A stretch of DNA of 64,000 nucleotides from Treponema ruminis (GTDB lineage Bacteria; Spirochaetota; Spirochaetia; Treponematales; Treponemataceae), in contig CP031518.1 of the NCBI GenBank assembly GCA_017161305.1, positions 1,860,001-1,924,000 on the forward strand, written 5' to 3'. Position numbers and translations under genes: made by a program. The notes beneath the pieces were generated by a model. It was not told where the DNA came from, searched no databases, and saw nothing but the letters and a program-made list of their open reading frames with translations. Numbering within the stretch: position 1 is the stretch's first letter; each line of letters begins with the position of its first letter. Shown here piece by piece: positions 27,892 through 45,606 of the stretch.

Positions 27892-30800
27892 ATGAAAAAA
27901 GTGTTCTTGAATGTGTGGAAAAAGGCTCTTGTTTTGTCACTTGCTGTTATTCCTTTTGTGATAACGGCTTGTGGTGAGGATTCCGGATTGGGTTCAACCG
28001 TTGATACGGAGGCACCTAAAATCGAAATCACTTACCCGCCTCTGGGAGCTAATATTCGGGGCACTTTTGTTCTTGCCGGTAATTGTGACGATGATAAGAG
28101 CGTAAAGAGCATCATCGTTACCGTTACGGACACGACGACCAAAAAAGTTGTTGGCACAGTTCCTGCATCAATTGAAAATGAAGGAAAATCTTGGAAAGCC
28201 AGCATCAATAATTACAACGATAAAGATAAAAAATACGACTATCTTGACGGAAACTATCAGTTCACGGCGGAAGTTCATGATGGCGCAGGTCATAAAAGTA
28301 ATGCGTCACGAGTTTTCGACCTTGATAACACGGCTCCGGTTTTTGTAGCTTCAAATCCTGGCGTAATCAAGTCTCAGGGCAAAAAAGCTTCTGCTTACGG
28401 TTCAATCTTTACAATTGACGGTACAATTGCTGATGACCACACAATCGCAAGCCTTACCGCAAAAATTTTTGATGAGAACGGAACTTTAATCGGTGATTAT
28501 AAGGAAGAAGACATTGCAACGGCGGGCGGCACAAGCGTTACAATTGCTTCTCATTATGTTGATAAGAATGACGGAACTGCTAGAACAGTTCAGAACGAGC
28601 GTTATACTCAGATTTACGGTGACAATGATGCAGCCGGAACTAAAAAATACTATTGTACGGTTCTGGTAGAAGACAATACAAAATCATATACAGATCCTGG
28701 TGAAAGCGATAACACTACAAGCGGAAACATCACTTCAAAAGTCTATCTCTATGATTCAGTTTATAAATCACTCATGAGCTCTAAGAGCGGAAACAGATAC
28801 GGTCTTAGCGCAGCTGACTTTATGACTCTTTTGAACGGAACCCGCGCGGCTGATGAAAAGACAGAGCCGGCCCTCAAAATCTTGAAAGAAGTAGTAGTTG
28901 ATACAAGTGCGGAGGCAGAGGACAAGGATGCAAACAAACTCAGCTTCTCCCTCAATCCAATGGCAAACCCGACATACAGCGTAAACGGCTTCTCAGTATC
29001 TAAAGATATAGCCGGAAACGTCACATATAAAGAAGCATTCAGCGACAGCACGGTTGTCGTAAGCGTTAATGCAGGTCTTGATAAGACGGCAATCCTTCCT
29101 GGAAACCTCAAGGTCTGGACAGTGCTTGTTGACGGCTTGACTCCAGAAAAAGCCCTGGAGCGGGTCAGCAAGGTTGCAAGCAAGATTACGGCAGTCCAGA
29201 AACTCCATTATGAAGAAGTTCTTGAAAAATCAGAGGAAATCATCAATGAAGTAATGAAGTATGCAGAGGCCGAAAAACTCGATATTGTCCTCGTCAAGGA
29301 TAATTCTACTGATTCCGGTTCTTCTGTTCAGACAGAAACCTTGTCATGCGTCCTTCCAAAAGAGGCTTACATTTCTGGAAAGGTCTACGCATTCATTGTT
29401 ACAGGTTATGACGAAGACGACGTTGCCTTCCTTCAGAACACACTCTACGCATTTAAGGCAAATGAAGCAGGTCAGGCTCCAACCCTTATAATTACAGAGC
29501 CTGAGAATCAGTCTTACTTGAAGTCAACAGAAGGTCTTGTATTCAGTGGTAAAACATCTCTCCCGGACGGCTCAACACTCAAAGTCGCTGCATTGATTAT
29601 TAATCTCCGCGTTCAGGATGAAAACAAACAGAATATTGCCGTAGGAAAGACTGACGGATATACAGTCGACCTTACTTATAATGAAACAAGCGGCTATTCT
29701 TCTACAGATGAATCATTGACTTATGACCCTTCAACAAAAATCTGGACATTCACTCCTTCAAAACTTGCTGATTACAATGATATTTCTGCAAGCGAAGGCG
29801 AAGGAAAGTCTTATTTCTATACGGTAGACATTTCATCTGAATCATCTTCGCGCAATGCTACGTCAAAGACAATTTCAGTCCATGTTGATTCGACAATGCC
29901 TAAAGTCTCGATTGCGAATGTAACTCCATATGTCAGCGGTAGTAATTTCTATTCAGAAGCCGGAGAAAATATCAGAAATTATGTAAACGGCGACATTACT
30001 GTAAAATTCAATATCGAAGAGACCAACCTCAAGGAAGTTTCATATAAAGTTCTTGTAGACGGTGAAGAAAAAGTCTCTCCTGTCAGCCTTGGCAAAGTTT
30101 ACTCCGGTTCAATTGACCTCGACACTACAAAATGGACGGAAACTGCAAAAGAAAAGAAGAATATTGAAGTTGTAATTACGGCTGTCGATGTCTGTGGAAA
30201 CACAACTTCTTATTCTACAACAGAATACAACACAGTCACCTATAAAAATGACAAAAATGAGGAAGTAAATTTCAACAAGCCGATTATAATCTGCCAGGAA
30301 ACTGATATTCCTCAGATTAAATTTGCAAACGCAGAACTCTCTTACAAAACTGGAAAAGATGACCAGATTGTCGAACATTCATTCCTCGTCGTTGAAGAAG
30401 AGGCAAAGAATGATGCAAACAAAAAGAGCATTGTTGCAAGCCACAACCTCTTCAACATCAAGAACAACAACACAATCCAGATTGCCCTTGATGATGATGA
30501 TAATATTGCCAGTGCAAAAGTCGTGCTTTACGATGAGGCCGGAAAACTTTATGAAGCAGACGGATTTGAGAATCCTTCTATAAAGCAAATCGGCAAACCT
30601 TCTTTCACATGGAACTATCTGCTTCCTGCAAAAGAAGGAATCTATCAGGTTTATATCGAAGTAACAGACTCTAAACTGAAAGATGATTTGAGCGAAACGG
30701 TCAAACTCTGGAGAACCAATAAAGTCGGAAAATTCTACGTTGCCGTTGATGACGGAGCTCCGACAGTCGAGATTAAGAATCCTGTCGCCGGTTCATATCA

Positions 30801-33800
30801 GAAGAAAGCATTTGCCGCAAACGGAACTGTTTCTGAAAAAGATAACGTTACACTTACACGTTCTATTTACAAGCTTGATGCAAAAGCTGAAGATAAAAAA
30901 TCGGTTGACATTACAGCAAAAATTACTAAAGACAAAGACGGAAACTTTATCTGGGCAGAGACTGATGAAGACATTAAGGACCTTGCAGACGGCGAGTACA
31001 TCCTTTCTTACACTGCAACTGACCGATACGAACAGTCTTATACAAGCGATGTGCGCGTAAAGGTTGATACAAAGGCACCTGTCTTCAAGGACGATAAATC
31101 AAAAGTCTTCGTTTCTTCTAATGCAGAGGCTGGAAAAGCTTATGTTGAAAAGACCTGGTTCAACAGCGAGGCCCTCAACCTTTCCGGCGAATTTGAAGAG
31201 GCAAACGGCATTTCAAACGTCTACTACTGGCTCGACACAGATGTAAACACTGTTGAGAAAGACGGAAAAACTCAAATTGTATTCAGCGATATTCTCAATG
31301 AAGATAAAACTGTAAAAACAAAAGGTGCTTCAGGAAGCTTCACGGCCGTAACAGAAAACGGCATAAGCACATACAAGACGACTATTCCTGATTTTACTGA
31401 ATGTTCAGCTGCAAATGCCCACAAACTCACACTCATCGCAGTTGACCTTGCAGGAAACGAATCGGAGAAGATTGAATACACGTCAATTAAAGTCGATATG
31501 ACGGCTCCGGTATTTGAAAATTACTACTATAAGATGGGCGCTGTAAAGGGTGAAGTAAGCGGCAACATCCTTACAAACGGTGAAAACGACGTAATTCTTT
31601 ACGGACTTATTTCTGACGCCGCTTCTGGTGTTGACGTAAATAATTTCGTGCTCAATGTAATTAACGGTACGACAAAATCAATTCTTGCTGACACACAGAC
31701 AGTCAAGAACATTACATTTACGACAGAGCCTACTTCATGGACAGAGGTCGATGGCGAAAATCAGCAGACCGTAAATGTTGATACAACAGCCGGATTTGAA
31801 AAGTGGATTGAAAAAGCAGACGCTGCAACAGCTACTACATTCAAAGATGGTGCTTCAATTGAAGATACTACAAAAATCACCGGATGGAAGGCTGTAATTG
31901 ATAATGACAGGTTCAAGGCCGGTGAAGTCCGCACAAATTACTTCGATAATGCTGGAAACGGCAACAAGAACTATAAGATGTTCTCAATCCGAGTGGATAA
32001 GGAAAAGCCAAAAATTTCAAACCATACTCTCACGGCAGAAAAGAAGACTGGAGAAATTATAGACTATACGGCTTACAAGACTGCGGATTATACATTCCCT
32101 GCCGGTTCTGATACAAAGATTCCTCATTACTACGTAAATAACAGTGACGGACATACATTCTCGCTTTCAGGCGTTGCTACTGATAACGAGGGAATTGCAA
32201 AAGTTGAGCTTATTACCGGAAGCGGAGTCACAAAAGATGCCGATAAAGGTGAATTCAAGTGGACTGGAATTGACCTTTCAGCCCTTGATGCAGACTCAAA
32301 CGTTACAATCAAGATTACTGATATTGCAAACAACGTATTTGAGCAGAATATTCACATCACTCCTGATGTAAAGGCTCCGGAAGGCAAGCACAGTACAGGA
32401 AATGTAGACAATTACTTCAGAATCGGAGACTCTAAAGTTGGCGAAGTCAGCGATGTAGGACTCGGACAGTCAGCAGAAACTTACGGAAAAGACAGCTCAC
32501 TCAAAATCCGCGGTTACTTTACAGAAAATGGAAGCGGTCTGAACATGATTTATTACAAGACCTTCGCTTCTATTCCAAGTGCTACTGACATCGATGAATT
32601 CAAGAAAGATTATGAAGGAAAGAAGAGCGGCTATTTCTCTCCACTTGAAGTTGAGGAAAGCAGAACAATCGGTCAGGAAGTGATTCCGACAAACTTCAAG
32701 ACTAATATCCCTGGATTCAAGGAAGGAAAGAACTATCTCGTACTCATTGCCGTTGATAAAGTTGGCAACGCAGAACTTGATAATGTTACTTATAAATATA
32801 CACCGGATGGCACGACGTCTGAAATTTCTCTTGCCGGCTGCTACGAAATCAAAGTCGATATGACCCAGCCACGCTTCGAAAGATTCTATTACAAGATGGG
32901 AGCAATCAATGCGGAAGTAAAGGGTGACATTCTCACAAACGGTGAAAATAATGTAACTCTCTATGGACTTATTTCTGATGCGGATTCTGGTGTAGATGTT
33001 GAAAAATTGCAGCTTAAAGTACTTACCGATACTGAAAAGAAGGTAATTGCAGATACCTCAAATATCACGTTCACAACTGAAGCTACTTCATGGACTGCAG
33101 GTTCAGTTCAATACACAATGGCTTCATCAAATGGACTTGAAAAGTGGGTTGAAAAAGCTGATAAAGACGGTGAGTCTACATTTAAAGCTGCTTCTTCAAT
33201 TTCAGATACTACAAAAATCACCGGCTGGAAAGCAGTTATTAACAAGAAAGCTTTCGAAACTGGAGAAGTTAGGGCGGATTACTACGATAAGGCCGGAAAC
33301 AGCAGCCTGAATATCAAGATGTTCTCGGTACGCGTTGATAAAAAGCCTCCAAAACTTAACAACCACAACTTCGCAGACACGACTCCAAATTATACGGCTT
33401 ACAAGTCAAAGACAGTAATCGAAGGTACAGGGGATGATGCAAAATCGGTTCCTTATTACTTCATCCACAACACGGATGACCACAAGTTCACCCTTTCTGG
33501 TGTTGCGACAGATAACGAAGGTGTTGCAAGAGTTGAACTTAAGAATGGTACAAGCGTACTGAAACATGCAGAAAAAGGTGATTTCAACTTTGATGATCTT
33601 GATTTCTCTACTTTGTCTGCTGTAACAACATTGACTCTCAGTATCACGGACGCCGCAAACAATGTTTCTGACTACAAGATTGTTCTTACTCCAGATGTAA
33701 CAGCTCCAAACGGAATCCACGACACAGATTCACTTGGCAAGGATTTGCAGTTCCGAATCGGCGAACAGGTATACGGAAGTGAAAAAGTTGGTGCTAAGTA

Positions 33801-36800
33801 TTCTAAGGGAACTTACGGAAATTCCAACTCAATCATGATTCGCGGTTACTTTGATGAAGCAGAAACTGGCAGCGGATTGAGTATGATTTATTACATGCTC
33901 AAACAAACACCTCCTTCAGTGGATGATATTACTGGCACGACAGGCTTCTTGAAGAATTATCAGGACAAAGCTACCGGCTACTTTGCCCCAACAGAAAAAA
34001 CATCTCAGACAATCTTGAAGAATGTTGGAACAGGGGCTTCTGCAACACAGGAAAAAGTAACTGTAGCCTACAACTTCAAGACCCTGCTTTCAGGATTCCA
34101 GGAAGGAAACAACTATCTCGTTCTTGTAGCCGTTGATAACGTAGGAAACGCTGCGGTTGATACAAAGACATTCTCTTATAAGGCTAATTCTACAGACACG
34201 GAAGATACTGTTGTAAACTGCTACTCAATCAATGTTGATACGGCAGTTCCTGAACTCAGCGACCAGGTAACTGTAGAAATCGCAGGTTCAAGCGACGGCC
34301 TTTCTGCAAGCCAGATTCTTACGAACTTCAAAAAAGGCGACATCACGCTTAAAGGTTTTTGTTCTGATGCAGCGGCAGGAATTGATTCCGTTACTCTCTA
34401 TGTCGAAGGTAAGGGAAAAAATTCAACAGACGCAGAGGTCGTAATTGATAAAACTACAAGCGTAACTGTAGGTACAACTTCGGTAACATCTAGCGTTGAA
34501 GCAGACTTGACCGGTGCCACAGAACAAGCAGAAACTTGGTCTGGAAAAGTTGCCGCAAACTTGTTCAGCAATGTTGAATCCGGCACATTCGCAGTCTATG
34601 CAACTGTAAAAGATAAGGCGGGCGACGGAAACACAATTAACCGAAGCGTTGCAACAATCATTGTTGATAAGACAAATCCAGGCGTAACTCTCAAAGCACC
34701 GGCTGATGCTGACTCATCAACGACAGATGTTGAAATTAACGGAATTATTAGCCTCAGCGGTGAAATCACGGACGGAAACATCCTGCCGGATAAAGCAATT
34801 ACTGCAATTCAGTATGTAGTTAAACCTGCAACTGATCCTGAAGATTTGAACACCCTCAGCTGGACAGACGCTTCTTCTTCAACGATGACAGGTTTTGACC
34901 TCTCAGGTAACTACACGTTCACTGCAAGCAATTTTGACACGTCAAAACTCACGGACAAAACTGTTTACTACATCCGTGCAAAGGCAACTGATAAGGCTGG
35001 CAACGTCGGATATTCAGCTCCTGTAACTGTCACAGTTGACCAGGACACAGACCGCCCTGTTATCAAGATTACAAGCCTTGATAAAGCCGGTGACATTATT
35101 TCTGCCGGAACAATCATGGGTACAATCTCTGATGACGACGGAATTGATGCTGATTCATTTAAGTATAAGGACGGCGAAACTGGCGAGCCTAAAGACTTTA
35201 CTTCATTCAACAGCGGAAACTGGCGAATTGATGGACTTGAAGCTGGCGAACGCAATATTTTCTTCGTTGTAACAGATAAAGCCGGTACAACATTCGAGAC
35301 TAAAAAAACAACAAAAGACAGTTTTGCTTCTTCTGGTGAGCCATACGTTATTTTGGAAAAAACACCAAAGGCGTTGAATACAGATGCCGTTTCATTCAAG
35401 GTTGACTTGAAGGACCCGAAAATTACGGCTTTGTACTTCGCAAGTACAGAAGCAAACGCAATCCCTGCATATCCTAATACTGCTGCATCCGAGCCGTGGC
35501 AACCGACAGGCAAGGTAAGCTATGGTCCAGCCTCAAAATTCATGTCAATCTACTTTACTGTAGAAGAAGATGTAGAAATGGCTGCTGTTGGCAGTGACGT
35601 TGAGATTAAGGCTCCGAACGGCACTATTTCTTTGGATGAAGGTAAAGTAACTCGTATAGATCCAGAAGGTGCAACAACTGACTACATCTATAAGATTGGT
35701 GTAATTGATACTACTGGTGGATTCCAGACATTGGTTTCAGAAGGTAATAATACAATTACAATAACCGTAACTGATAAGTCCGGCAGAAAGAGCTCTGAAA
35801 CATTCAACATCTTTGTTGATAACGTCGCACCAACGGTCAAGAATTTCTATAATGACACAGAAACTGGAATTACAGGCAAAGTCACAATTCCTGGAAGCGT
35901 AACAGATTCTACAGGAATCAAGACCGTCAAATACCTCATTCCAACTGCTGAACAGCAAACAACTTATGAAAATGACAGAACGACTGATGAAAAAACTGCC
36001 GTTACTAATTTGGCTGCAGTTTCTGGTTGGAAAGATATTTCTGTTGCATCTTCAATGTATGCGGAATTCGACATTAAGTTTGAAAGCTCTTCATTCACAG
36101 AAGAAACCAATGCAACAACTGGCAAAACAAGCTTGATTTACTATGCTTCAAAAGAATCTTCAACAGCTGGAAAACTCGAATATGCCGTAACTCGAAGCGG
36201 AACAGGTACAACGGAAGACCCGTACACTTATGCACAGGCCTCTACAACAGACGCAACGATTTACGTTCCGATTTTCTTCTATACAGAAGATTCTAACGGT
36301 AGCAAAGGTATTACCAAGTTCTACTACAGGGTTTACCCGGACGGCGGTATTCCAAAAGCCGAACTTACTTCACACGCTGAATCAGTAAATGGATTGGTTA
36401 AGACAGGAAACAAAGTAAACCTCATGGGTACAGCCGAAGATGACGAAGGCGTTGCTTCCGTAAAGATTACAAAACTTGAGTACACAACTGAAGACGGTGA
36501 CTCAATTACAGATTCTACGACATGGAAAGAAATCGACATTTCAAATCTTTCTTCTGATTCAAGTGATACTAACCGTGCCGTTACCCGCGGAACTGTGGAA
36601 GGAAGCACAATCGTTTGTGACGGAACTACAAGCTGGAAGGCTTCTATCAATACGGCAAAAATTAATACTGGCACAGATGAACTCAAGGCAATCCGTGTCA
36701 CTGTCGAAGCATTCGATGAAAACGATACTTCAAGTTCAAAAGCTCATGCAAACGGTACATCAGCAACATGTATAAACCGAATCGTAGTTGATAAGACAGT

Positions 36801-39800
36801 TCCTGTTCTTGAATCGGCGGCAATCGTTGGATTTGCTTCTGCCCCTGCTTCTGTGACTGCAACTCCTGTATTTGAAAAGTCTTACGAGGCCGGAATGTAC
36901 TTCTCTGGCACAAAGGCTACAAATTGGTACTTGAAGGCTGAAATTTCTGATGATTCAAGCGTAACGGGATTTGAAATCTCGAGCATGACTGGAAGCGGTT
37001 ATATTTCTGCTATCTCTGATGGCGGCGTCGATTCCGGGGATTCAACTTTGACCGCAATAACAGGTCTTGTTGAAAATGGTCGGGATACAAAAACATACAC
37101 CATCCTTATCCCGATTACAACATCAAGTGAAGGTCACGTTTACGCAACGCTTGAAATGTTCGACGGCCAGCACACAGACGTTACGACCGCGTTCTCATTC
37201 TTCATTGATAACACGGCTCCTGCCCTGTATAAAACAAAAGCTGGAACAGCTGGCGTTGCGGATGACAAACTTGCTCATGCAGATACGCTCCGCTTGAAGA
37301 GCAACGGAATGCAGATTGATACAGGAAACAACGTAGTTGAAAACTCAGACGGTTCTTACACATTCGGTGATGAACTTGTAGAAGCCCGCTCTGGCCTTGC
37401 TTACGTCGCATTCTACTTCAAGAAAGCCGCAAGTGAAACGCACCATACTACAAACCGGATCTACAGCCCGATGTTTGGAACTGACAACATGATTACACTT
37501 GCAGCCTCAAAGACTGCCGATGAAGTCTACATCAACTCTGAAGGCTTGCCTGCACTCGTTAAGACTGTAACAGTCACAAACACAACGACAGATGGAGTTA
37601 CAACAAGTACAGTTAAATTTACACGTTTAGGAACTAATAAGTTCATTAATAATGCTGCATGGAATACTGGGGCTACATCATTCGGACTTGTAAAGATTGG
37701 CGGTGCATATCACAGAATCAAGTCAATTACAGATGATGTTGCGACACTTGCAGACGAAGTTTCAGACAAATACACTGAAGCCGAATTCATCTATGCAATG
37801 CTCGTTGACCACCAGATTGCCGAAGGATTCTCTTCTGCTGATCCGACAGGTGTTTCAAACGATGACGGTGACGGCTTAGTCGAAATGGTTAAGCAGACAG
37901 GAAGCACTTACAAGTGGACTGCAAGCATTCACTCTGACAATATTCCTGACGGTCCTGCAGAAATCCATATTGTTGTATTCGATGATGCGGGTAACTCAAA
38001 CTCAGGCTACGTCAAGACAAGCATCCAGAACAACCGCCCGAGAATCGCACGAGTCTACCTCGCAACCGACTTGAACGGAAACAATTTGTTCGACTTCGAC
38101 AACGGGGAAGTTCCTGAACTTGATTCAAATTCTGAACGATACACAGAAAACGGAACAGAATACGGCGAGCTTGCATATTATTCAACGCTCACAAAAGACT
38201 CAAAGATTCAGGCAACGGCAACACTCAAAAAGAACCAGTGCAACTTCGTTGTTTCAAACAGACTCCTCGTATTGCCTGAAATCATCGGTGGAAACGGTGA
38301 GGATGCAGAGCTTAGATATGCATACAGCGTTTCAGATAATTCACCGGAGGCTTTGACTCCTGAAGATGCGGAAGCTGAAAGTGTTGGAATCACACAAGCC
38401 ACGGGAACGGCATTGAAGTCATTCTCTTCAAGTTTGGCAGCTCTTCAGCTTGCAGACCGTGGAAGTACTGCTGCTTCACCTGTAACGACAAATATTTCTT
38501 CATTCCTTGGTTCAAGAACTCCAACTGATGCAAACGGCTACTTCGTTAAGAACGGCACTGTTCCAACAAACAACCGCGGTTATCTTGGCTTTGTCCTTAA
38601 CAATGATGATTTGAAAACTCATGAAAGCTGGGTTGGCGATACAAAGATTAAGAAATACTTTGCATTCACAATCTGGGACAAAACTCCTGAAACAACTCAG
38701 GGTGAAGATTCCCTCTATGCACTCCTCAAGATTCCGTTAGTAATCAACGTAAAGGATGACGTCAGACCAAGAGCTGACATCACACCGTTCTACTGGAACA
38801 GCAAGGAAGACGGCTCATTCGTATATGCTGAAGACGGAACACCGGAAGGACACATTGATCTTGTCGCTGAAGCAGACAAAAACAAGACAACTGTTAGACC
38901 GGGTGTTTCTGGAACTGTATACATTGAAGGTACTGCTTATGATGAGACACGATTGTCGAAGATTGAGGTAAGAGACCCGAGCGGAACAGCATATACTATT
39001 GCTGAATACGATTCTGGTGCTTGGAAAACTGCTGAGAATGCAACAGAAGCTGGCACAAACGGCTGGCCTTGGCCTGATAACTATATTTCTTCTAAAGTTG
39101 AAACAATTACAGAGCCGAGCCAGAAAGGTCATAAGGTTGCATGGAAACTTGAAATCAACATGACCAAGTTCGGAATTAAGACTGACCAGAGTGTTTATGT
39201 AACTGCATACGATGCAAGTACAATTCCTACTGGTAAAAACTCTAGTATCAATTCGAGTGTACAGACTGTCTGTGATGCTCATACATCTCGTTATAGAATG
39301 GATTTCGTGCCATACATCAAGAGCATTTACCCTGCAACAGAAAGCAGCGCAGCCCGCTCTAGGTTGGGCAAATTCCCAGTACAGGCAGGAAAAGATATGT
39401 ATATTGAAGGAATGAACTTCTCAACAGATCTTGAATACAGGATTGGATTCAGTACGACACCAGAAAATGAAGCTCTCATTTCTTCTCCAAATACATATGA
39501 AGGTAAGTTTATTGAAGATGATGATGTAAGTAAGGTTGAAAATGGTAAGATTAAAGTAACTGCACCTCAGAATTCTTGTTATGTCCGTGTATGGGTAAAA
39601 CCTACCGGTGGTAATTGGACTTATACAAAGAATAACATGAATGAAAATGCCGGCTGCAACATTGAAGAAGGTTATGTAGCTTCAGATGACAACGGCAAAG
39701 GCAACATGGACAGAGGCTTTAAGCGTGCCAACGATGCCGGAACCAACTTCTGGACTGACGACAGGTATATTGCGGTATGGAACACGGGAACAAAATTTGA

Positions 39801-41235
39801 TAATAGTGACAATCCTAGAAGCGGTACTCTCGTAAAATATGAGAAAGATGGTTGGCAAACTAGGGGTGGTTCACTTCCTGATGATACATACTCAAAGCAA
39901 GACCGATTGTTCGGATTCTGGGGGTCAACACATGAAGTTGTATATGATGCATTCTTGGGAACTTCTGCTTCTACCTCAATGTGTAGGGCTGCGACTGGTA
40001 CATTCTATACTCCTACAGAATATACGGATGTTTGCCTTGTCTGGAATGCACCTTCTGTAAATCCAAAAACTGCAAACCAAGCTACCGACACAAAGAACAG
40101 AGCTGCTTACATTCCGTTCTATGTATTCCTTGAAAATGGTTGCTCGCTTGGTGAGACATGGGGAACAGGTCTTACTATTACCAGAGACGGTTATAAACTT
40201 GATAAGAATTTGCATAATGAACAGGGTGTAACAATAGAGTATCAGGGTGATGACAGTATGATGGATCAGTTCAGAAATCCAAAAATGGTTGGAGTGTATT
40301 CTTCTGAAACTGAAAAGTTTGGAGACGATTCTATAACTGGGCTATACCATTTTTATATCACCTATTATGATGCATATACTCATTGTTTGAAGTATGCAGC
40401 TGTTGATTATCCTGCATACTTTGCTGATAGTAAGCAGAATTATCAGCGGGCAACTTTCAAAATGTCTGCAAATTCTAAAACTCCGACTTACAAAATTGGT
40501 GAATTCGGGCCGTCTGATGCTGTAATTGCTGGCAATGATTCAGTGGGTTCTGGACACGACACTGGTATGTGGAGCGATGTTGCACTTATTTATGACAGAA
40601 CAACGGCTGTTGCTCAAGGTGAAATAACAGCTCCTACGCCTGTTGTTGCTTATTATGATAAGACAGACAAAACTTTACATATTGCTGTGGGCAATTCTTC
40701 TATTCCAAAAACAGCTAGTGGCTGGACTGACAATAAAATTACTCGTCCAAGCGGACTCAGTGATTTCGGACGATATGTAACTGTTGAAATGGATGACAAT
40801 AATGGTTTGCATGTTGTGGCACAGGGTACAAAGAATAACAAGGGTGCGTTGTACTATATGTACTTTGAAGCTAACAAATATGACAAACCTGCTATTACAA
40901 CGGTTGTTGATTCTACAGACAATGTCGGTGTTTGGTGTGAGATGACTCTGAACGATAAGTCTAAGACAGGACTTGAAGCACTGCCTGTAATTACACATAT
41001 GGCACAGGGAAGTGCACGTGTCGCAAAGGTTGCTTATATCGAAGACGGTCATTTTGAATCAATTTCTGACCCGTCAGATGCTGAGCCAACAGATTATAAA
41101 TTAAGTGTTGTAACTGATGCGTATGAAGGTGTTGTATCTGCGGGAGGAAAAACTGGAAATAATACAAAGAGTCCATACGCAATTGGTATCAATTCAGATT
41201 ATTTCTATGTAGACTTCCTCCGTGGAGAGGAATAA
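27892..41235 (+). CDS. Giant Ig-like repeat lipoprotein, 4447 residues
   Basis: One uninterrupted frame of 13.3 kb. The N-terminus has a lipoprotein signal with lipobox VITAC (Cys ~27), so the protein should be lipid-anchored and probably surface-exposed. After EAPKIEITYPPLGANIRG the body is a long series of Ig-like units marked by DTxAP or VDKxxP starts and TDNEGxAxVEL or AVDxxGN strands. Residues ~1200-1653 and ~1654-2113 are tandem copies of a ~455-residue unit. Near residue 3800 an IPT/TIG-like piece (FVPYIKSIYPATESS, YIEGMNFSTDLEYRI) leads to a ~500-residue C-terminal domain with propeller-like blades (VAYYDKTDKTLHIAVG, VTVEMDDNNGLHVVAQG). AAGGGG lies before the ATG; a strong terminator follows. 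It may partner the barrel-anchored Ig protein upstream. The function is unknown. Confidence 0.85.
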   Translation: MKKVFLNVWKKALVLSLAVIPFVITACGEDSGLGSTVDTEAPKIEITYPPLGANIRGTFVLAGNCDDDKSVKSIIVTVTDTTTKKVVGTVPASIENEGKSWKASINNYNDKDKKYDYLDGNYQFTAEVHDGAGHKSNASRVFDLDNTAPVFVASNPGVIKSQGKKASAYGSIFTIDGTIADDHTIASLTAKIFDENGTLIGDYKEEDIATAGGTSVTIASHYVDKNDGTARTVQNERYTQIYGDNDAAGTKKYYCTVLVEDNTKSYTDPGESDNTTSGNITSKVYLYDSVYKSLMSSKSGNRYGLSAADFMTLLNGTRAADEKTEPALKILKEVVVDTSAEAEDKDANKLSFSLNPMANPTYSVNGFSVSKDIAGNVTYKEAFSDSTVVVSVNAGLDKTAILPGNLKVWTVLVDGLTPEKALERVSKVASKITAVQKLHYEEVLEKSEEIINEVMKYAEAEKLDIVLVKDNSTDSGSSVQTETLSCVLPKEAYISGKVYAFIVTGYDEDDVAFLQNTLYAFKANEAGQAPTLIITEPENQSYLKSTEGLVFSGKTSLPDGSTLKVAALIINLRVQDENKQNIAVGKTDGYTVDLTYNETSGYSSTDESLTYDPSTKIWTFTPSKLADYNDISASEGEGKSYFYTVDISSESSSRNATSKTISVHVDSTMPKVSIANVTPYVSGSNFYSEAGENIRNYVNGDITVKFNIEETNLKEVSYKVLVDGEEKVSPVSLGKVYSGSIDLDTTKWTETAKEKKNIEVVITAVDVCGNTTSYSTTEYNTVTYKNDKNEEVNFNKPIIICQETDIPQIKFANAELSYKTGKDDQIVEHSFLVVEEEAKNDANKKSIVASHNLFNIKNNNTIQIALDDDDNIASAKVVLYDEAGKLYEADGFENPSIKQIGKPSFTWNYLLPAKEGIYQVYIEVTDSKLKDDLSETVKLWRTNKVGKFYVAVDDGAPTVEIKNPVAGSYQKKAFAANGTVSEKDNVTLTRSIYKLDAKAEDKKSVDITAKITKDKDGNFIWAETDEDIKDLADGEYILSYTATDRYEQSYTSDVRVKVDTKAPVFKDDKSKVFVSSNAEAGKAYVEKTWFNSEALNLSGEFEEANGISNVYYWLDTDVNTVEKDGKTQIVFSDILNEDKTVKTKGASGSFTAVTENGISTYKTTIPDFTECSAANAHKLTLIAVDLAGNESEKIEYTSIKVDMTAPVFENYYYKMGAVKGEVSGNILTNGENDVILYGLISDAASGVDVNNFVLNVINGTTKSILADTQTVKNITFTTEPTSWTEVDGENQQTVNVDTTAGFEKWIEKADAATATTFKDGASIEDTTKITGWKAVIDNDRFKAGEVRTNYFDNAGNGNKNYKMFSIRVDKEKPKISNHTLTAEKKTGEIIDYTAYKTADYTFPAGSDTKIPHYYVNNSDGHTFSLSGVATDNEGIAKVELITGSGVTKDADKGEFKWTGIDLSALDADSNVTIKITDIANNVFEQNIHITPDVKAPEGKHSTGNVDNYFRIGDSKVGEVSDVGLGQSAETYGKDSSLKIRGYFTENGSGLNMIYYKTFASIPSATDIDEFKKDYEGKKSGYFSPLEVEESRTIGQEVIPTNFKTNIPGFKEGKNYLVLIAVDKVGNAELDNVTYKYTPDGTTSEISLAGCYEIKVDMTQPRFERFYYKMGAINAEVKGDILTNGENNVTLYGLISDADSGVDVEKLQLKVLTDTEKKVIADTSNITFTTEATSWTAGSVQYTMASSNGLEKWVEKADKDGESTFKAASSISDTTKITGWKAVINKKAFETGEVRADYYDKAGNSSLNIKMFSVRVDKKPPKLNNHNFADTTPNYTAYKSKTVIEGTGDDAKSVPYYFIHNTDDHKFTLSGVATDNEGVARVELKNGTSVLKHAEKGDFNFDDLDFSTLSAVTTLTLSITDAANNVSDYKIVLTPDVTAPNGIHDTDSLGKDLQFRIGEQVYGSEKVGAKYSKGTYGNSNSIMIRGYFDEAETGSGLSMIYYMLKQTPPSVDDITGTTGFLKNYQDKATGYFAPTEKTSQTILKNVGTGASATQEKVTVAYNFKTLLSGFQEGNNYLVLVAVDNVGNAAVDTKTFSYKANSTDTEDTVVNCYSINVDTAVPELSDQVTVEIAGSSDGLSASQILTNFKKGDITLKGFCSDAAAGIDSVTLYVEGKGKNSTDAEVVIDKTTSVTVGTTSVTSSVEADLTGATEQAETWSGKVAANLFSNVESGTFAVYATVKDKAGDGNTINRSVATIIVDKTNPGVTLKAPADADSSTTDVEINGIISLSGEITDGNILPDKAITAIQYVVKPATDPEDLNTLSWTDASSSTMTGFDLSGNYTFTASNFDTSKLTDKTVYYIRAKATDKAGNVGYSAPVTVTVDQDTDRPVIKITSLDKAGDIISAGTIMGTISDDDGIDADSFKYKDGETGEPKDFTSFNSGNWRIDGLEAGERNIFFVVTDKAGTTFETKKTTKDSFASSGEPYVILEKTPKALNTDAVSFKVDLKDPKITALYFASTEANAIPAYPNTAASEPWQPTGKVSYGPASKFMSIYFTVEEDVEMAAVGSDVEIKAPNGTISLDEGKVTRIDPEGATTDYIYKIGVIDTTGGFQTLVSEGNNTITITVTDKSGRKSSETFNIFVDNVAPTVKNFYNDTETGITGKVTIPGSVTDSTGIKTVKYLIPTAEQQTTYENDRTTDEKTAVTNLAAVSGWKDISVASSMYAEFDIKFESSSFTEETNATTGKTSLIYYASKESSTAGKLEYAVTRSGTGTTEDPYTYAQASTTDATIYVPIFFYTEDSNGSKGITKFYYRVYPDGGIPKAELTSHAESVNGLVKTGNKVNLMGTAEDDEGVASVKITKLEYTTEDGDSITDSTTWKEIDISNLSSDSSDTNRAVTRGTVEGSTIVCDGTTSWKASINTAKINTGTDELKAIRVTVEAFDENDTSSSKAHANGTSATCINRIVVDKTVPVLESAAIVGFASAPASVTATPVFEKSYEAGMYFSGTKATNWYLKAEISDDSSVTGFEISSMTGSGYISAISDGGVDSGDSTLTAITGLVENGRDTKTYTILIPITTSSEGHVYATLEMFDGQHTDVTTAFSFFIDNTAPALYKTKAGTAGVADDKLAHADTLRLKSNGMQIDTGNNVVENSDGSYTFGDELVEARSGLAYVAFYFKKAASETHHTTNRIYSPMFGTDNMITLAASKTADEVYINSEGLPALVKTVTVTNTTTDGVTTSTVKFTRLGTNKFINNAAWNTGATSFGLVKIGGAYHRIKSITDDVATLADEVSDKYTEAEFIYAMLVDHQIAEGFSSADPTGVSNDDGDGLVEMVKQTGSTYKWTASIHSDNIPDGPAEIHIVVFDDAGNSNSGYVKTSIQNNRPRIARVYLATDLNGNNLFDFDNGEVPELDSNSERYTENGTEYGELAYYSTLTKDSKIQATATLKKNQCNFVVSNRLLVLPEIIGGNGEDAELRYAYSVSDNSPEALTPEDAEAESVGITQATGTALKSFSSSLAALQLADRGSTAASPVTTNISSFLGSRTPTDANGYFVKNGTVPTNNRGYLGFVLNNDDLKTHESWVGDTKIKKYFAFTIWDKTPETTQGEDSLYALLKIPLVINVKDDVRPRADITPFYWNSKEDGSFVYAEDGTPEGHIDLVAEADKNKTTVRPGVSGTVYIEGTAYDETRLSKIEVRDPSGTAYTIAEYDSGAWKTAENATEAGTNGWPWPDNYISSKVETITEPSQKGHKVAWKLEINMTKFGIKTDQSVYVTAYDASTIPTGKNSSINSSVQTVCDAHTSRYRMDFVPYIKSIYPATESSAARSRLGKFPVQAGKDMYIEGMNFSTDLEYRIGFSTTPENEALISSPNTYEGKFIEDDDVSKVENGKIKVTAPQNSCYVRVWVKPTGGNWTYTKNNMNENAGCNIEEGYVASDDNGKGNMDRGFKRANDAGTNFWTDDRYIAVWNTGTKFDNSDNPRSGTLVKYEKDGWQTRGGSLPDDTYSKQDRLFGFWGSTHEVVYDAFLGTSASTSMCRAATGTFYTPTEYTDVCLVWNAPSVNPKTANQATDTKNRAAYIPFYVFLENGCSLGETWGTGLTITRDGYKLDKNLHNEQGVTIEYQGDDSMMDQFRNPKMVGVYSSETEKFGDDSITGLYHFYITYYDAYTHCLKYAAVDYPAYFADSKQNYQRATFKMSANSKTPTYKIGEFGPSDAVIAGNDSVGSGHDTGMWSDVALIYDRTTAVAQGEITAPTPVVAYYDKTDKTLHIAVGNSSIPKTASGWTDNKITRPSGLSDFGRYVTVEMDDNNGLHVVAQGTKNNKGALYYMYFEANKYDKPAITTVVDSTDNVGVWCEMTLNDKSKTGLEALPVITHMAQGSARVAKVAYIEDGHFESISDPSDAEPTDYKLSVVTDAYEGVVSAGGKTGNNTKSPYAIGINSDYFYVDFLRGEE
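31490..34230 (+). repeat. Tandem ~1.37-kb internal duplication in the giant lipoprotein gene
   Basis: Unit 1 (31490-32850) and unit 2 (32851-34230) align end to end. Both open KVDMT-P-F then YYKMGA and continue with ILTNGEN, LYGLISDA-SGVDV, DTTKITGWKAVI, TAYK, SGVATDNEG and IRGYF. A more diverged partial copy precedes unit 1 from ~31080 (WFNSEALNLSGEF to SIKVDMTAP). Confidence 0.85.
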
Positions 41236-41529: not shown

Positions 41530-41619
41530 TTACGAGGTTAGAACCGACGGATACCATCTTGCGGCACGTGTTATATCCCTGTCGTGTAAATTCATAGCAG
41601 CGTAATCCCTCCTGAACAT
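41530..41619 (-). pseudogene. Fragment of an rpn gene (internal piece)
   Basis: The frame MFRRDYAAMNLHDRDITRAA matches residues near the C-terminus of the rpn gene at 43281 (KFRRDYAAMNLHDRDITRAA) and then runs into unrelated RWYPSVLTS and a stop. It starts directly after the displaced rpn tail, so at least two rpn copies once lay here. Confidence 0.7.
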
Positions 41620-41620
41620 T

Positions 41621-41722
41621 TCATTTAAACTGTTGCTGTAACTCTCGTACAGTTTCAAGCGGAAGCCCTTCCGCCTGTGCAATCTGCTCAGTAGAAAGAA
41701 GTTTCATTTTCAAGAGATTCTT
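41621..41722 (-). pseudogene. Displaced C-terminal tail of the IS-interrupted rpn gene
   Basis: Read leftward from the IS end, the sequence encodes KNLLKMKLLSTEQIAQAEGL then PLETVRELQQQFK and a TGA at 41621-41623. This is the standard C-terminal tail of Rpn proteins. It continues exactly where the truncated gene at 43281-44039 stops (VEAAK), once the IS and one CTT duplication are removed. It has no start of its own. Confidence 0.8.
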
Positions 41723-41784
41723 TGAATTGTACCCCTTGTCAAGGACACATAAGAAGAAGGGATTAAAAAATCCGAAGAAAATTT

Positions 41785-42729
41785 TCAAATATCAGTAGGA
41801 TTTTCTTTCTTTAGAGGATAGATACCAGTAGTGAAATATTTGTAGTATTCATCTGGAGAAAGTTTAGCCAACTGCCACTGATAACGTTCTGTGTTGTAAT
41901 AATCAATCCAGTCATCAATTATTTTCTTTACATCATCAAAAGTTTTACAGTCAGAAAGATTTATCTCATCTTTCATGTGACCGAAAAAACTTTCTTGAGG
42001 AGCGTTATCCCAACAGTTACCACGTCTGGACATCGACTGCCGTAGCTTTTTATCAATAAGAAGTTGAATAAAACTGCAGCTGGTATAATGGCATCCCTGG
42101 TCACTGTGTATCAATGTTTCGGTAGTAAGAGAAATACCATGTCTGTCAACAAGAATATTAATGGTTTCAAGAACAAAGTCTACCTCAAGTGAACTGCTCA
42201 GTACATACGAAAGAACTTGCCTTGTGAAAGCATCAATGACGGTTGAAAGATAGCAGTATATTCCGTTATAGGGAATATATGTAATATCCGTCAGAAGTAT
42301 TTTTCTGGGACCGAATTTCGTAAACTCCCGGTTTACAAGATTCGGGGAAACATTGTTTGTTTTTAATGCTTTAGCCATCCTTCTATAAGGATTCGCCTTT
42401 CTAATTGGACAATACAGGTTGTATTTGTTCATCAGACGGCGTATTTTCTTCAGGTTCATAACAACAGGTGGATTTTGATGTAGTAAATACATATGAATTC
42501 CTTTTGCCCCCTTGTCATATCCCCGATGATTATAGGCTGAAAGTATAATTTCAAAATCTTTTCGGTCTAGTTCCTCCTTCTTTTGTCGTTGCTCTTCTGA
42601 CATTACCCATTTGTAATATCCGGATCTCGATACACCGGCAATTTCACATAACATTTTTACGGACAGTTTATTGTTCTTCTGTGATACAACATCATGGATA
42701 ATCTCAAATTTATTTGAAGATGTCTCCAA
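41785..42729 (-). CDS. IS3-family transposase OrfB (DDE integrase)
   Basis: This 314-residue protein has an N-terminal HTH_21-like segment (MLCEIAGVSRSGYYKW) and an rve integrase core. The DDE triad is visible in LLTDITYIPY (Asp), IHSDQGCHYTS (Asp) and NCWDNAPQESFFGHMKDE (Glu). Its nominal start is TTG 42729, two bases after the orfA stop, but it is more likely made as an OrfAB fusion by -1 frameshifting at A-AAA-AAG (42747-42741): after slippage the frame reads EAIILETSSNKFE. It appears intact, so the element may be active. Confidence 0.93.
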   Translation of the reverse strand: METSSNKFEIIHDVVSQKNNKLSVKMLCEIAGVSRSGYYKWVMSEEQRQKKEELDRKDFEIILSAYNHRGYDKGAKGIHMYLLHQNPPVVMNLKKIRRLMNKYNLYCPIRKANPYRRMAKALKTNNVSPNLVNREFTKFGPRKILLTDITYIPYNGIYCYLSTVIDAFTRQVLSYVLSSSLEVDFVLETINILVDRHGISLTTETLIHSDQGCHYTSCSFIQLLIDKKLRQSMSRRGNCWDNAPQESFFGHMKDEINLSDCKTFDDVKKIIDDWIDYYNTERYQWQLAKLSPDEYYKYFTTGIYPLKKENPTDI

Positions 42730-42731
42730 AA

Positions 42732-43145
42732 TTATTGCTTCTTTTTTGAGTTGTCCGCTGTAATAATTTTTTTTAAAAATTCAACTTCCTGACGTAGGTA
42801 CAACAGTTCAGCTTGCATCTGTGAAATTGTTTGGGGAGAATTATCTGTTTCCGGCTTTTTTATACCAGTACGGTAATTATGGTTTTCACCTTCTGTAAAA
42901 CCAGTGCCTGACAATGCCTGATTTTTTATTTTTTGAACAATGCAGTCTATTTGTTTCTGGGTAAATAAATCTAAATCATAACCAAGGTCTTTTATGATTT
43001 TTCTTGGTGCAATTCCGGCCTGATATCGTATCCAGAATTCTTCTTTGAACTTAATTGTAGGATAAAATTTACAATTTGAAACTTTTAGCGTATATTGATT
43101 TGATTCAAGTTTCTTTTTTTCTTCTGCGGTGAATTTCCTTTGCAT
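42732..43145 (-). CDS. IS3-family OrfA (helix-turn-helix protein)
   Basis: The 137-residue protein has a basic N-terminus, a helix-turn-helix region (KEEFWIRYQAGIAPRKIIKD) and a C-terminal leucine-zipper-like coiled coil (ISQMQAELLYLRQEVEFLKK), as in IS3-family OrfA, which binds the terminal repeats. It ends NSKKKQ; the codons TCA-AAA-AAG include the slippery heptamer for -1 frameshift into orfB. Confidence 0.88.
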   Translation of the reverse strand: MQRKFTAEEKKKLESNQYTLKVSNCKFYPTIKFKEEFWIRYQAGIAPRKIIKDLGYDLDLFTQKQIDCIVQKIKNQALSGTGFTEGENHNYRTGIKKPETDNSPQTISQMQAELLYLRQEVEFLKKIITADNSKKKQ

Positions 43146-43280
43146 CGCAGCACCTCCAGTGTAGATACATTATATCTTCTGGATTTTCCAAGTGTCTACT
43201 ATTTGGGATTTTCCCTTTTATTTTAGTGTCTACTTTTATGGATCCCTTCTTCTAAATGTGTCTACCATTTGGGGTATATT

Positions 43281-44039
43281 TTACTTAGCCGCTTCAACGG
43301 CCTTCTGTTGTGCACCTTGCGCAAGCCCTTGCCGGAGACCTTCCTGTTTTGCAGCCCTGGTTATATCCCTGTCATGTAAATTCATAGCGGCGTAATCCCT
43401 CCTGAATTTTTCGTTGTCCTTTATCTGCTCAACCAGCGAGGACAGACGGTTTGTAAAGTCGTCTTCTCCTGGCTCGTTCGTGTGGATGAAGTGAAGAAAA
43501 GTTCTAACCTGCTCGTCTTTTTCTTCACTGTATGCACTTGCATTATAGATGACCTTCAAGGATTTGTCATTCAAATTTACTGCCGGATTCTCCAAACATG
43601 TGTTTTTGAACGTGTAACATGGGAGGCCGTAATACTTTTTCTGCTCGTCTTTGAACGGGTCGCGTTTGCAGATGAAGAGGATGTAACTGTCTTTCAACTC
43701 TGAATAATCCTGCCCCTTCATGAGACTGTCCATGTCTATCATCGACTGGTAATAGCGGGTGCGTTTGCCAAGTGCGTCCTGCGGGTAGGATTGCATCTCT
43801 ACATCTATGATTTTGTCCGTGTCCTTTAGATACACGTCTAGCCGGACTCCCTTCGTTGTGTAATACGGTGCGATTGTCTTTTCCAACTCAGGGTATTCGA
43901 TGTGGTTTACTTGTATGTGCAGAAGCCGCTCAACAAGCTCCGCGCAAATCTCCGGATTCCGCAAGACTTCCTGGAACATGCCATCGTCCATAAAAGTCAA
44001 TTCGTCAACAGGTTTTGGTTTGAAAATGCTTTCTGTCAT
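43281..44039 (-). pseudogene. rpn gene (PD-(D/E)XK nuclease family) truncated by the IS3 element
   Basis: The remaining frame gives 252 residues of an Rpn-type recombination-promoting nuclease/putative transposase. It has FMDDGMFQEVLRNPEICAEL, the catalytic core GVRLDVYLKDTDKIIDVEMQ (Asp and Glu-x-Gln of PD-(D/E)XK), YFKNTCLE-like YTFKNTCLENP and the late FRRDYAAMNLHDRDITRAAK. It ends VEAAK with a TAA donated by the IS; the natural tail lies at 41621-41722. The start is ATG 44039 (MTESIFKPK) with GGGAG 5 nt upstream. Because the nuclease core is intact, the truncated protein could still be made without its tail. An AGGAGG lies 12 nt before an internal ATG at 43385. Confidence 0.85.
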
Positions 44040-44257
44040 AGAAACTCCCATAAAAGTGTATTTGAGAAAGAAAGAATCCGTGTGCGGCCGATCACAAATG
44101 TTCTTCTAATTCTCATATATATTTATTTCCAAAAAAATTCGATTTTCGGCAATGTAAAACAGAAAAAGTCAGAAAAATCCAAAAAAAAATTGGCAGATTG
44201 ATGTGGTGAAGGATAGCCTTTAGTGTCAACAGAATCGCAAGTAGGAAATAAAAAGTT

Positions 44258-44300
44258 CAGCCCCAGTTGTCACAATTTCGTGGCTGGGGCTGCTTTTTTT
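44258..44300. terminator. Bidirectional terminator after the rpn tail ORF
   Basis: CAGCCCCAG (44258-44266) pairs with CTGGGGCTG (44284-44292). T-runs lie on both sides (CTTTTTTT rightward; AACTTTTTATT leftward). Confidence 0.85.
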
Positions 44301-44330: not shown

Positions 44331-44573
44331 TTATTTTGCGGTGGCCGGTTCGCGGTTAAGTTCTTCTTTTAATGCAAGTACTTGCTCCAGAGGAAGTGAA
44401 CAGCCTTGTGATACAGTTTCCGCAGTAACTCCGAGTTTTAGCAAATTCTTCGCGTTTTCAATGGAGGCAGCTTCCTTGCCATACTCAACGCCATCTTCAA
44501 AGCCCTCGGCACGGCGGTTACGGTCATAGTCTTCCTGATTGAATTCTGTGAGAAGGTTTCCGACAATGTTCAT
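44331..44573 (-). CDS. Stand-alone Rpn C-terminal tail protein (80 residues)
   Basis: The ORF begins MNIVGNLLTEFNQEDYDRNR and ends PLEQVLALKEELNREPATAK. It duplicates the last ~77 residues of the rpn gene just upstream (44626-44859); the first ~33 residues are identical and the rest diverged. An AAGGAG ribosome site lies 6 nt before the ATG, so it can be translated alone. A terminator follows at 44258. In enterobacterial rpn genes an internally translated C-terminal fragment of similar size acts as antitoxin to the full nuclease (established for Rpn, from memory); by analogy this could be an antitoxin-like or spare tail. It could equally be a non-functional remnant of recombination. Confidence 0.6.
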   Translation of the reverse strand: MNIVGNLLTEFNQEDYDRNRRAEGFEDGVEYGKEAASIENAKNLLKLGVTAETVSQGCSLPLEQVLALKEELNREPATAK

Positions 44574-44594
44574 CCGCTGCTCCTTGAAATAGCC

Positions 44595-44616
44595 CTCCTG
44601 CGCATAGTCGCAGGAG
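44595..44616 (+). terminator. Hairpin with T-run between the two rpn frames, pointing rightward
   Basis: CTCCTGCG and CGCAGGAG form a perfect 8-bp stem with a 6-nt loop, followed on the plus strand by AGTTTTTTG. It would stop rightward (antisense) transcription entering the rpn gene; on the rpn mRNA it is a hairpin about 20 nt before the ribosome site of the tail ORF. Confidence 0.6.
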
Positions 44617-44625
44617 AGTTTTTTG

Positions 44626-44859
44626 TTAATGCATAATTAAGATTTCGTCCTTGAGCGCCAGCACCTGTTCCAATGGCAAGGAACAACAGTCGGCAATTTC
44701 TTCAGCAGAAAGTTTGTTGAGTTTGAGCAAGTTCTTCGCGTTGGAAATGGTAGCTTGTCGTTCACCATACTCCACGCCGTCTTCAAATCCTTCGGCACGG
44801 CGGTTGCGGTCATAGTCTTCCTGATTGAATTCTGTGAGAAGGTTTCCGACAATGTTCAT
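44626..44859 (-). CDS. Possible internal small product of rpn (77 residues, in frame)
   Basis: Within the intact rpn gene, ATG 44859 (codon 250) is preceded by AAGGAG with 6-nt spacing. The resulting protein would contain only the tail (MNIVGNLLTEF to LKDEILIMH). The same ribosome site and ATG start the separate tail ORF at 44573. Gene-within-gene antitoxins of this kind are known in other rpn genes; translation here is an inference from the ribosome site. Confidence 0.45.
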   Translation of the reverse strand: MNIVGNLLTEFNQEDYDRNRRAEGFEDGVEYGERQATISNAKNLLKLNKLSAEEIADCCSLPLEQVLALKDEILIMH

Positions 44860-45606
44860 CCGCTGCTCCTTGAAATATCCGTCTAGAAAATTGCCCTTGA
44901 TGGCAAAGTCCACGGCCTCGTTGATTGCGTCTTCCGGTTTCATTCTCTTGTCGAGGTTCGCCTTTACGCGGTCAACGAAGACACAGTAATGATACAACGA
45001 CTCGCACTTTTTTTGAAGACTTTCGTTGTGATTTTTGTTGATGTTGATTACGGTTGCCGTCCATTCGAACTCTCTGCTCTCATCTTTGAGCTCAAATAAT
45101 TCGGAAAGCCTGTATTTTACGATGTCGTCTTGTTCCTGCTTTCCGTTGTAGAAGACGACAAATTTTGGGGAAGGTATCTTGATTCTAGTCCGTCCGAAAA
45201 TATCCAGATTCCGTTTGGCGACTTCCTTCTGATAAAGCTGGGAGAAGTAAATCAGCCCTCTGAGCGGCATGTTGGGATTGACCGTGGACTGCTGCTCAAA
45301 GAGGTGCATCTCCGAGTTTATCAGGAAGGATAAGTCATTCTTCATGGTGACGTAAATGACGTCGTCAATCGTGGTGATTTCTAGAGCTGAAATGTCGGTG
45401 TAGTTTTTGTCGCTAAGTGCGTTGTAAAGCGAGAGAAGCCAGCGCTTACTTCTGTCATCTTTTCCGCTGTAAATCGATCGGAAGAGAGTGTCACGAAATG
45501 TTCTTTTCGTTGCGTCAATGCCCGGCAGGGTAGTTGATTTTATTTTAGCCATCTTCTCCTGCATTTTCGTTCGATTCTTCTTGATTGCCTTTGTTTTCTT
45601 TTTCAT
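44626..45606 (-). CDS. Rpn family recombination-promoting nuclease/putative transposase, intact
   Basis: This 326-residue protein is of the PD-(D/E)XK family. After a basic N-terminus (MKKKTKAIKKNRTKMQEKM) it has DTLFRSIYSGKDDRSKRWLL, the catalytic stretch MKNDLSFLINSEMHLFEQQS (Asp, then Glu-x-x-x-Glu-x-Gln type), RGLIYFSQLYQKEV and PSPKFVVFYNG. This is the subfamily common in gut firmicutes and spirochaetes. The tail from residue 250 (MNIVGNLLTEF) is the variable C-terminal cassette. AGGAG lies 5 nt before ATG 45606. Rpn proteins are DNA nucleases proposed in recombination and phage defence. Downstream lies a duplicate of its tail; the neighbouring rpn at 43281 is of a different subtype. Confidence 0.88.
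   Translation of the reverse strand: MKKKTKAIKKNRTKMQEKMAKIKSTTLPGIDATKRTFRDTLFRSIYSGKDDRSKRWLLSLYNALSDKNYTDISALEITTIDDVIYVTMKNDLSFLINSEMHLFEQQSTVNPNMPLRGLIYFSQLYQKEVAKRNLDIFGRTRIKIPSPKFVVFYNGKQEQDDIVKYRLSELFELKDESREFEWTATVININKNHNESLQKKCESLYHYCVFVDRVKANLDKRMKPEDAINEAVDFAIKGNFLDGYFKEQRMNIVGNLLTEFNQEDYDRNRRAEGFEDGVEYGERQATISNAKNLLKLNKLSAEEIADCCSLPLEQVLALKDEILIMH

Follow-up and report, generated by a model that had tools for sequence, protein, structure and literature searches.

The window is a stretch of 64,000 nucleotides from Treponema ruminis (contig CP031518.1, positions 1,860,001 to 1,924,000), and plain coordinates refer to it. On its reverse strand, a putative nuclease gene is followed directly by a short open reading frame (ORF) that repeats the hinge and the beginning of the tail of that gene. 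The features of this unit are as follows.

44626..45606, reverse strand: putative Rpn-type nuclease gene, 326 aa, open throughout
Codons ~36-240 of this gene: PD-(D/E)XK-like N-domain
Codons ~241-281: hinge, which holds the internal start
Codons ~282-326: variable C-terminal tail
44857..44871, reverse strand: internal ribosome site AAGGAG, 6-nt spacer and ATG (44859, codon 250), predicted to give a 77-aa RpnS-like product
44719..44883, reverse strand: hinge and tail repeat, copy 1, inside the gene
44593..44618, reverse strand: 10-bp hairpin right behind the gene, without a T-run
44433..44597, reverse strand: hinge and tail repeat, copy 2, outside the gene, beginning at the 3' foot of the hairpin
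44571..44585, reverse strand: ribosome site AAGGAG, 6-nt spacer and ATG of the free tail ORF
44331..44573, reverse strand: free-standing RpnS-like ORF (the free tail), 80 aa, start at 44573
About 44246..44292, reverse strand: hairpin followed by a T-run, a probable terminator closing the unit

The initial annotation of this DNA had described an internal start at codon 250 of the nuclease gene, leading to a 77-residue product, and a second tail with the same ribosome site behind the gene. Both hold. The in-gene site lies at 44871-44857, and the same AAGGAG-CAGCGG-ATG opens the free ORF. The two products agree in all of their first 32 residues (about 33 had been given before), and the remainder has diverged. 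The terminator said to close the second ORF corresponds to the hairpin with a T-run at about 44292-44246. At the DNA level, the two copies (44883-44719 and 44597-44433) are 88% identical over 168 bp (E 3e-56), after which they diverge. We rejected chance similarity and a mis-read frame as explanations on the basis of this DNA repeat and of the internal-start control described below.

We profiled the family membership of the gene, which had been labelled rpn. It has no match in Pfam, and the NCBIfam model TIGR01784 matches its C-terminal tail only, below threshold (19.2 bits; cutoff 52.1). The label therefore rests on relatives, on a motif and on a profile comparison. TIGR01784 was detected in 49 of 59 aligned members (window gene included), Pfam PF12784 (PDDEXK_2) in 19 and PF04754 (Transposase_31) in 13, all at E <= 0.01. 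A profile built from the 59 members matched E. coli RpnE (hhalign probability 95, E 3e-8). The invariant columns of the alignment include D91, E104-x-Q106 and R116, which we read as the Rpn active site. The 55 relative loci are mostly labelled as Treponema or other spirochaetes, and three are labelled as Firmicutes groups.

In the predicted structure of the full gene product (mean pLDDT 85), strands and helices form a core, to which the tail adds one long helix (262-296) and two short ones (301-308 and 312-325). Foldseek comparison of this model with the PDB gave weak matches (best McrC, E 0.03; none at E <= 0.001). Nickase, DdmD and Card1 entries, which are presumably of PD-(D/E)XK type, are among the 50 PDB fold matches listed. 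A PDB sequence search returned nothing for the gene family and nothing for the tails. The 80-aa ORF matched no Pfam family at E <= 1, DUF4351 (PF14261) of free-standing RpnS included. We take the window gene to be a putative, diverged Rpn nuclease.

The internal start recurs across the aligned members. In the aligned hinge, a start codon lies inside a 12-codon window in all 59 members, and in 51 of them (window gene included) it has an SD duplex of <= -6 kcal/mol; six members come from this genome, so the 59 are not independent. As a control, 792 other windows of 12 codons were taken from these genes; 416 of them hold a start and 14 reach <= -6 kcal/mol. When the hinges were recoded synonymously, the actual site beat the recoding mean in 57 of 59 members, and in the median gene 9% of recodings did as well as the actual site. 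The internal start is more than chance, and these results support an intragenic RpnS-like start in the window gene.

The 2.9-Mb genome, assembled as one contig, carries nine copies of the gene (window gene included) at 87-100% amino acid identity and two further ones at 63%. Over the 36 pairs of the nine copies, pS and pN average 0.389 and 0.020 for the nuclease domain, 0.135 and 0.007 for the hinge, and 0.525 and 0.235 for the tail. The nuclease is therefore under purifying selection and the tails are diverse (pN 0.020 vs 0.235). Two of the eleven genes, the window gene and K2211, are followed by intact free tails, and I566 by one that is cut by an IS. The joint of gene end, hairpin (44593-44618) and second hinge recurs after the paralogues B1528 and C148, where the same LIMH-stop-hairpin is followed by hinge remnants only. 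These remnants keep 15 bp between GGGC repeats that the window free copy lacks. Free tails also follow P606 and P1969, two genes of the PF12784 family.

Comparing rpn loci for downstream tail copies had been set as a check on the initial annotation. Our survey used the best matches listed (29 loci, 55 loci and 8 own-genome stretches). Ten of 85 genes were dropped for repeated C-termini, leaving 75, and one more lacked usable downstream sequence, leaving 74. The C-terminal 330 nt of each gene were matched to its own 1.2-kb flanks. Among the matches listed, the C-terminus recurred within 1.2 kb downstream in 24 of 74 genes and within 1.2 kb upstream in 10 of 72; antisense repeats were found in 0 of 74; a repeat started at most 100 nt past the stop codon in 17 of 74; and none lay in the 100 nt before the ORF (0 of 72, the nearest being 116 nt away). 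Ten of the 17 downstream repeats are intact ORFs (window gene, K2211, L086, L103, L104, L105, L116, L149, L154 and L162); the other seven comprise six remnants and one tail interrupted by an IS. Two loci fall outside these counts: L107, with a downstream ORF of another Rpn type that starts further off, is not among the 17, and L148, with a broken nuclease frame, is not among the 74. The arrangement is thus recurrent (17 of 74 listed genes, 10 of 17 intact), and a one-off remnant is rejected among the matches listed, even if remnants are still common (6 of 17).

Longer series also occur. L148 (MAG RUG13083) has three tandem hinge and tail units behind its nuclease gene, and L116 has two tails plus a third hinge remnant. 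A start at SD <= -4 was found in 15 of the 16 free tails tested (the ten intact ones, I566, L107, two of L148, P606 and P1969). The exception is the free tail of L103, and for L154 the script picked an upstream GTG. Taken together, the survey supports the free tail as a recurrent, often intact and probably translatable ORF.

The pattern of substitutions in the hinge fits translation of the free tails. Nine pairs with at least one free tail were compared over 30 hinge codons, and eight of them have 2-5 synonymous and no nonsynonymous changes; the remaining pair, from L116, has 3.5 synonymous and 8.5 nonsynonymous changes. The second K2211 tail and the third L148 tail, both free and from two genomes, have a dN/dS of 0.14 over the whole tail. 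Beyond the hinge, dN/dS ranges from 0.21 to 1.06 in the tail pairs with a computable ratio. Part of the hinge pattern can be inherited from attached parents, and low dN in young duplicates can likewise be carried over from the parent.

A rather unlikely alternative is that the free tails are recombination debris, left when one rpn copy replaces or enters another, functionless and going to decay. The six hinge or tail remnants and the IS-cut tail among the 17 repeats are in line with such an origin, as are the joints at varying positions and the free copy of L086, whose hinge and tail both come from another rpn type, which fits a leftover. However, ten of the 17 repeats are intact, 15 of the 16 tested free tails keep a ribosome site, and hinges of free tails from two genomes differ by zero nonsynonymous changes. 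In L148 the nuclease frame is broken, yet two free tails are open. The E. coli free copy YpaA has been detected as a protein (Zhong et al. 2023, PMC10327210), although in RefSeq the ypaA gene of K-12 is a pseudogene and RpnE is marked inactive.

We then asked where the tails come from. Between the window gene and its free tail, synonymous changes amount to 3 of 17.7 sites in the hinge and 27.2 of 35.3 sites beyond it (Fisher p 3e-5). The same contrast, with fewer synonymous changes in the hinge, holds for K2211 (p 0.028), for tails 1-2 of L148 (p 0.019) and for L116 (p 0.032; Fisher tests). Tails 2-3 of L148 show no such contrast (4.0 of 17.3 vs 9.2 of 37.0 sites). A single duplication followed by drift would give even synonymous divergence, so the contrast in the four tested pairs counts against it.

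Comparison of 12 free tails with 83 attached tails points in the same direction. Among these 83, the attached tail nearest to the variable part belongs to a non-neighbour gene for 7 of the 12 free tails and to the neighbour for 5, whereas the hinge is nearest or tied to that of the neighbour in 9 of 12. In the window, the variable part of the free tail is nearest to the tail of the paralogue at G000 2692413-2693381 and not to that of the adjacent gene. No candidate donor in its own genome matches along its length at more than 74% DNA identity, and the stretches that score higher span just 28-52 bp; therefore, no recent copy event can be named for it.

Closer matches connect other loci. F562 and the next gene, P563 (PF12784), have the tail and 3' flank in common over 344 bp at 95.6% DNA identity, whereas their nuclease domains have no significant match, and the similarity starts at the helix-1 repeat. 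The L134 free tail and the attached tail of L141, both from one MAG, agree at 95% over 119 bp. Tail types defined at 78% identity form clusters that span the attached and free states as well as nuclease families. Genes of the PF12784 family in the same genome carry this tail module too; the window gene itself lacks a Pfam match and stays below the TIGR01784 cutoff.

We consider it improbable that the free tails arose by plain tandem duplication and later divergence with no exchange, which is the origin inferred for the free copies of E. coli rpnC and rpnE. The 5 of 12 free tails that are nearest to their adjacent gene would agree with this, and in E. coli each free copy reportedly groups with its parent (PMC10327210). 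The 7 of 12 nearest elsewhere, the uneven synonymous divergence along the four tested pairs, the 95% DNA match between the free tail of L134 and a tail attached elsewhere, and the 95.6% tail sharing between different nuclease families speak against it. The data support the tails as candidate cassettes that are exchangeable on an evolutionary scale. Of the earlier suggestion of a recombination cassette for switching the tail, the exchange between genes is thus borne out by these three comparisons (7 of 12, 95.6% and 95%), and switching itself is inferred.

The signal at the hinge is not uniform. A synonymous dip ahead of the tail (codons about 181-275) appears in two paralogue sets and is absent in the SUG108 set; hence, we saw no general rule of hinge conversion across the three sets. 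Constraint from overlapping start signals could be an alternative cause of the dip.

Helix 1 often differs in length between a gene and its free tail. We aligned 11 such pairs, leaving out L086, whose free tail has another hinge. The helix-1/repeat region changes length in seven of them and keeps its length in the window, P1969, L105 and L149. In five of the seven (K2211, P606, L103, L116 and L162) the steps in helix 1 are 4 residues or multiples of 4, and in L103, L116 and L162 the gene and free tails differ by 4 residues.

These features can be compared with E. coli, where RpnL toxicity, its neutralisation by RpnS with specificity, and phage defence have been reported (PMC10327210). According to the same source, 4-residue repeats set RpnS specificity, one extra 4-residue repeat abolished neutralisation in RpnC, and helix 1 forms the dimer contact of RpnA-S. 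Free-standing RpnS is described there downstream of rpnE (ypaA) and rpnC, with duplication inferred for both, and RpnL is suggested to start the recombination that makes downstream copies. In K-12 rpnE-ypaA, the repeat begins right after the stop codon at AAGGAG, the hinge is conserved, one 4-residue difference is present and the end has diverged. The arrangement in the window is therefore already known in kind, from the reported free-standing RpnS (PMC10327210) and from the same anatomy at K-12 rpnE-ypaA. The statement of the initial annotation that it knew of no description in treponemes agrees with our literature search, in which no treponeme or tail-cassette description was found at record level.

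The likeness to E. coli RpnL/RpnS comprises a hinge start with a ribosome site, a variable tail with 4-residue repeats, a putative PD-(D/E)XK-type nuclease and a second start and tail past the stop codon. As in ypaA, the separate start and tail form an ORF immediately downstream, with a hinge like that of the gene. In contrast to E. coli, the variable part here is often foreign (7 of 12), one array has three tails, and tails are common to nuclease families. The part of Zhong et al. covered here (PMC10327210) yielded no mention of tail arrays, of variable parts of foreign origin or of exchange across nuclease families. What goes beyond published work is the evidence, drawn from sequence comparison, that the variable part appears to be exchanged.

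Could the free tail serve its neighbour? The gene and free tail lie close together on the same strand and the intervening hairpin has no T-run, so co-transcription is plausible. A free tail that paired with the tail of its neighbour would then add to the antitoxin dose and strengthen restraint, a reading that we regard as quite doubtful. For the window pair, it agrees with the identical first 32 residues and with a helix 1 of equal length, helix 1 being the RpnA-S dimer contact (PMC10327210), and three other pairs of the 11 (P1969, L105 and L149) also lack a helix-1 insertion. However, the window pair is strongly diverged in its variable parts, 7 of the 11 pairs differ by helix-1/repeat insertions (by 4 residues in L103, L116 and L162), and a 4-residue difference exists in E. 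coli rpnE-ypaA too. By analogy with the published RpnC test, in which an extra repeat abolished neutralisation (PMC10327210), neutralisation of the neighbour would be expected to fail where lengths differ by 4 residues. The role of a spare antitoxin, which the initial annotation had suggested, therefore stays uncertain with respect to the adjacent nuclease: the equal helix 1 of the window pair favours it, and RpnS specificity (PMC10327210) and the insertions in 7 of 11 pairs disfavour it.

Building on the anatomy, the translation signals, the recurrence, the pattern of purifying selection and the exchange of tails between genes, we lean slightly towards interpreting the locus as an Rpn toxin-antitoxin gene-within-gene with a second, free antitoxin-like tail, in which the tail unit acts as a cassette. 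The full gene would encode an RpnL-like nuclease and the internal start its own RpnS-like tail, which would pair with the nuclease and restrain it. The cassette would consist of ribosome site, ATG, helix 1, variable helices, stop codon and often a hairpin. Recombination in the near-constant hinge and the short helix-1 repeats would put a new tail onto the nuclease, and the older or foreign tail would remain behind the gene, where it would keep its own ribosome site and continue to be translated. As an RpnS of different specificity, the free tail would be directed against paralogues or incoming Rpn with that tail type, and it would double as a donor for later tail changes. Nuclease toxicity, antitoxin action of the free tail, donor use and switching are what we infer in this scheme.

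Several results count against the cassette interpretation. Five of the 12 free tails are nearest to their neighbour, as in plain duplication, which weighs against exchange. Six remnants and one IS-cut tail occur among the 17 downstream repeats, L148 tails 2-3 show no hinge contrast, dN/dS reaches 1.06, the window free tail has no donor above 74%, and the synonymous dip is missing in the SUG108 group.

The nearest parallel in the way of working is found in orphan cdiA-CT/cdiI modules and rhs silent cassettes, which combine a constant body, a variable C-terminus and spare downstream modules that are fused elsewhere to full-length genes (PMC3150448). The likeness would be one of working only. Those modules consist of a toxin and an immunity gene, and their proteins are unrelated to Rpn (PMC3150448), whereas here a presumed antitoxin forms the tail, the nuclease forms the constant body and each free tail is one short ORF.

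The final tails of the arrays at K2211 and at L148, two loci from different genomes, are of one type, and different tails precede them. Beyond the rpn units and a short upstream stretch, the two loci have only matches of 42-112 bp, which are not aligned as shared flanks. The arrays are in line with a broader and, in our judgement, unlikely proposal, namely that gut treponemes hold a tail repertoire. New tails would enter at the hinge and older ones would be pushed downstream and kept as expressed antitoxins, so that an array would record former specificities, protect against Rpn with old tails and supply tails for switching. The data suggest that these bacteria may keep and exchange a stock of antidote tails. 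Published work left open the origin of RpnS diversity and the purpose of the downstream copies. Here, one genome has nine near-identical nucleases with different tails and several free tails, and its relatives add arrays and exchange between families; thus, each tail could be set against each nuclease in a matrix to test specificity. Free tails that neutralised paralogues instead of neighbours would be a form of antitoxin stock-keeping.

A second Rpn gene, of the PF12784 family, lies further downstream in the window, with these features.

43281..44051, reverse strand: second Rpn gene (PF12784), tail split by an IS
About 41720-43280, reverse strand: IS splitting this gene
41621-41722, reverse strand: its detached tail
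41558-41620, reverse strand: remnant of a hinge, including ribosome site and ATG, immediately behind the stop codon of the detached tail

The hinge remnant is a further case of the gene-then-tail arrangement within the window. From its two ORFs, we take the IS to be IS3-type. Rpn tails elsewhere in the genome carry copies that are 99.7-99.9% identical, one at G000 ~150 kb and one at ~565-566.7 kb that splits the free tail of I566, which makes three IS insertions into rpn tails in one genome.

Other variants were noted along the way. Two isolated tails (G000 798228-798476 and 2207689-2207940) have a common short leader, YMT.E.QR.YDF, that is absent from the main hinge types. In L148:3896-4943, a short tandem duplication breaks the nuclease frame, and both free tails behind it are open. 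L149, L151, L152, L154 and L156 carry a tail type of heptad-like EKDAALS/EIARLKA repeats in place of the usual tail. Beside the rpn cluster, on the opposite strand, ends a 4447-aa ORF (27892-41235, forward strand) that looks, by impression, repetitive and surface-protein-like.
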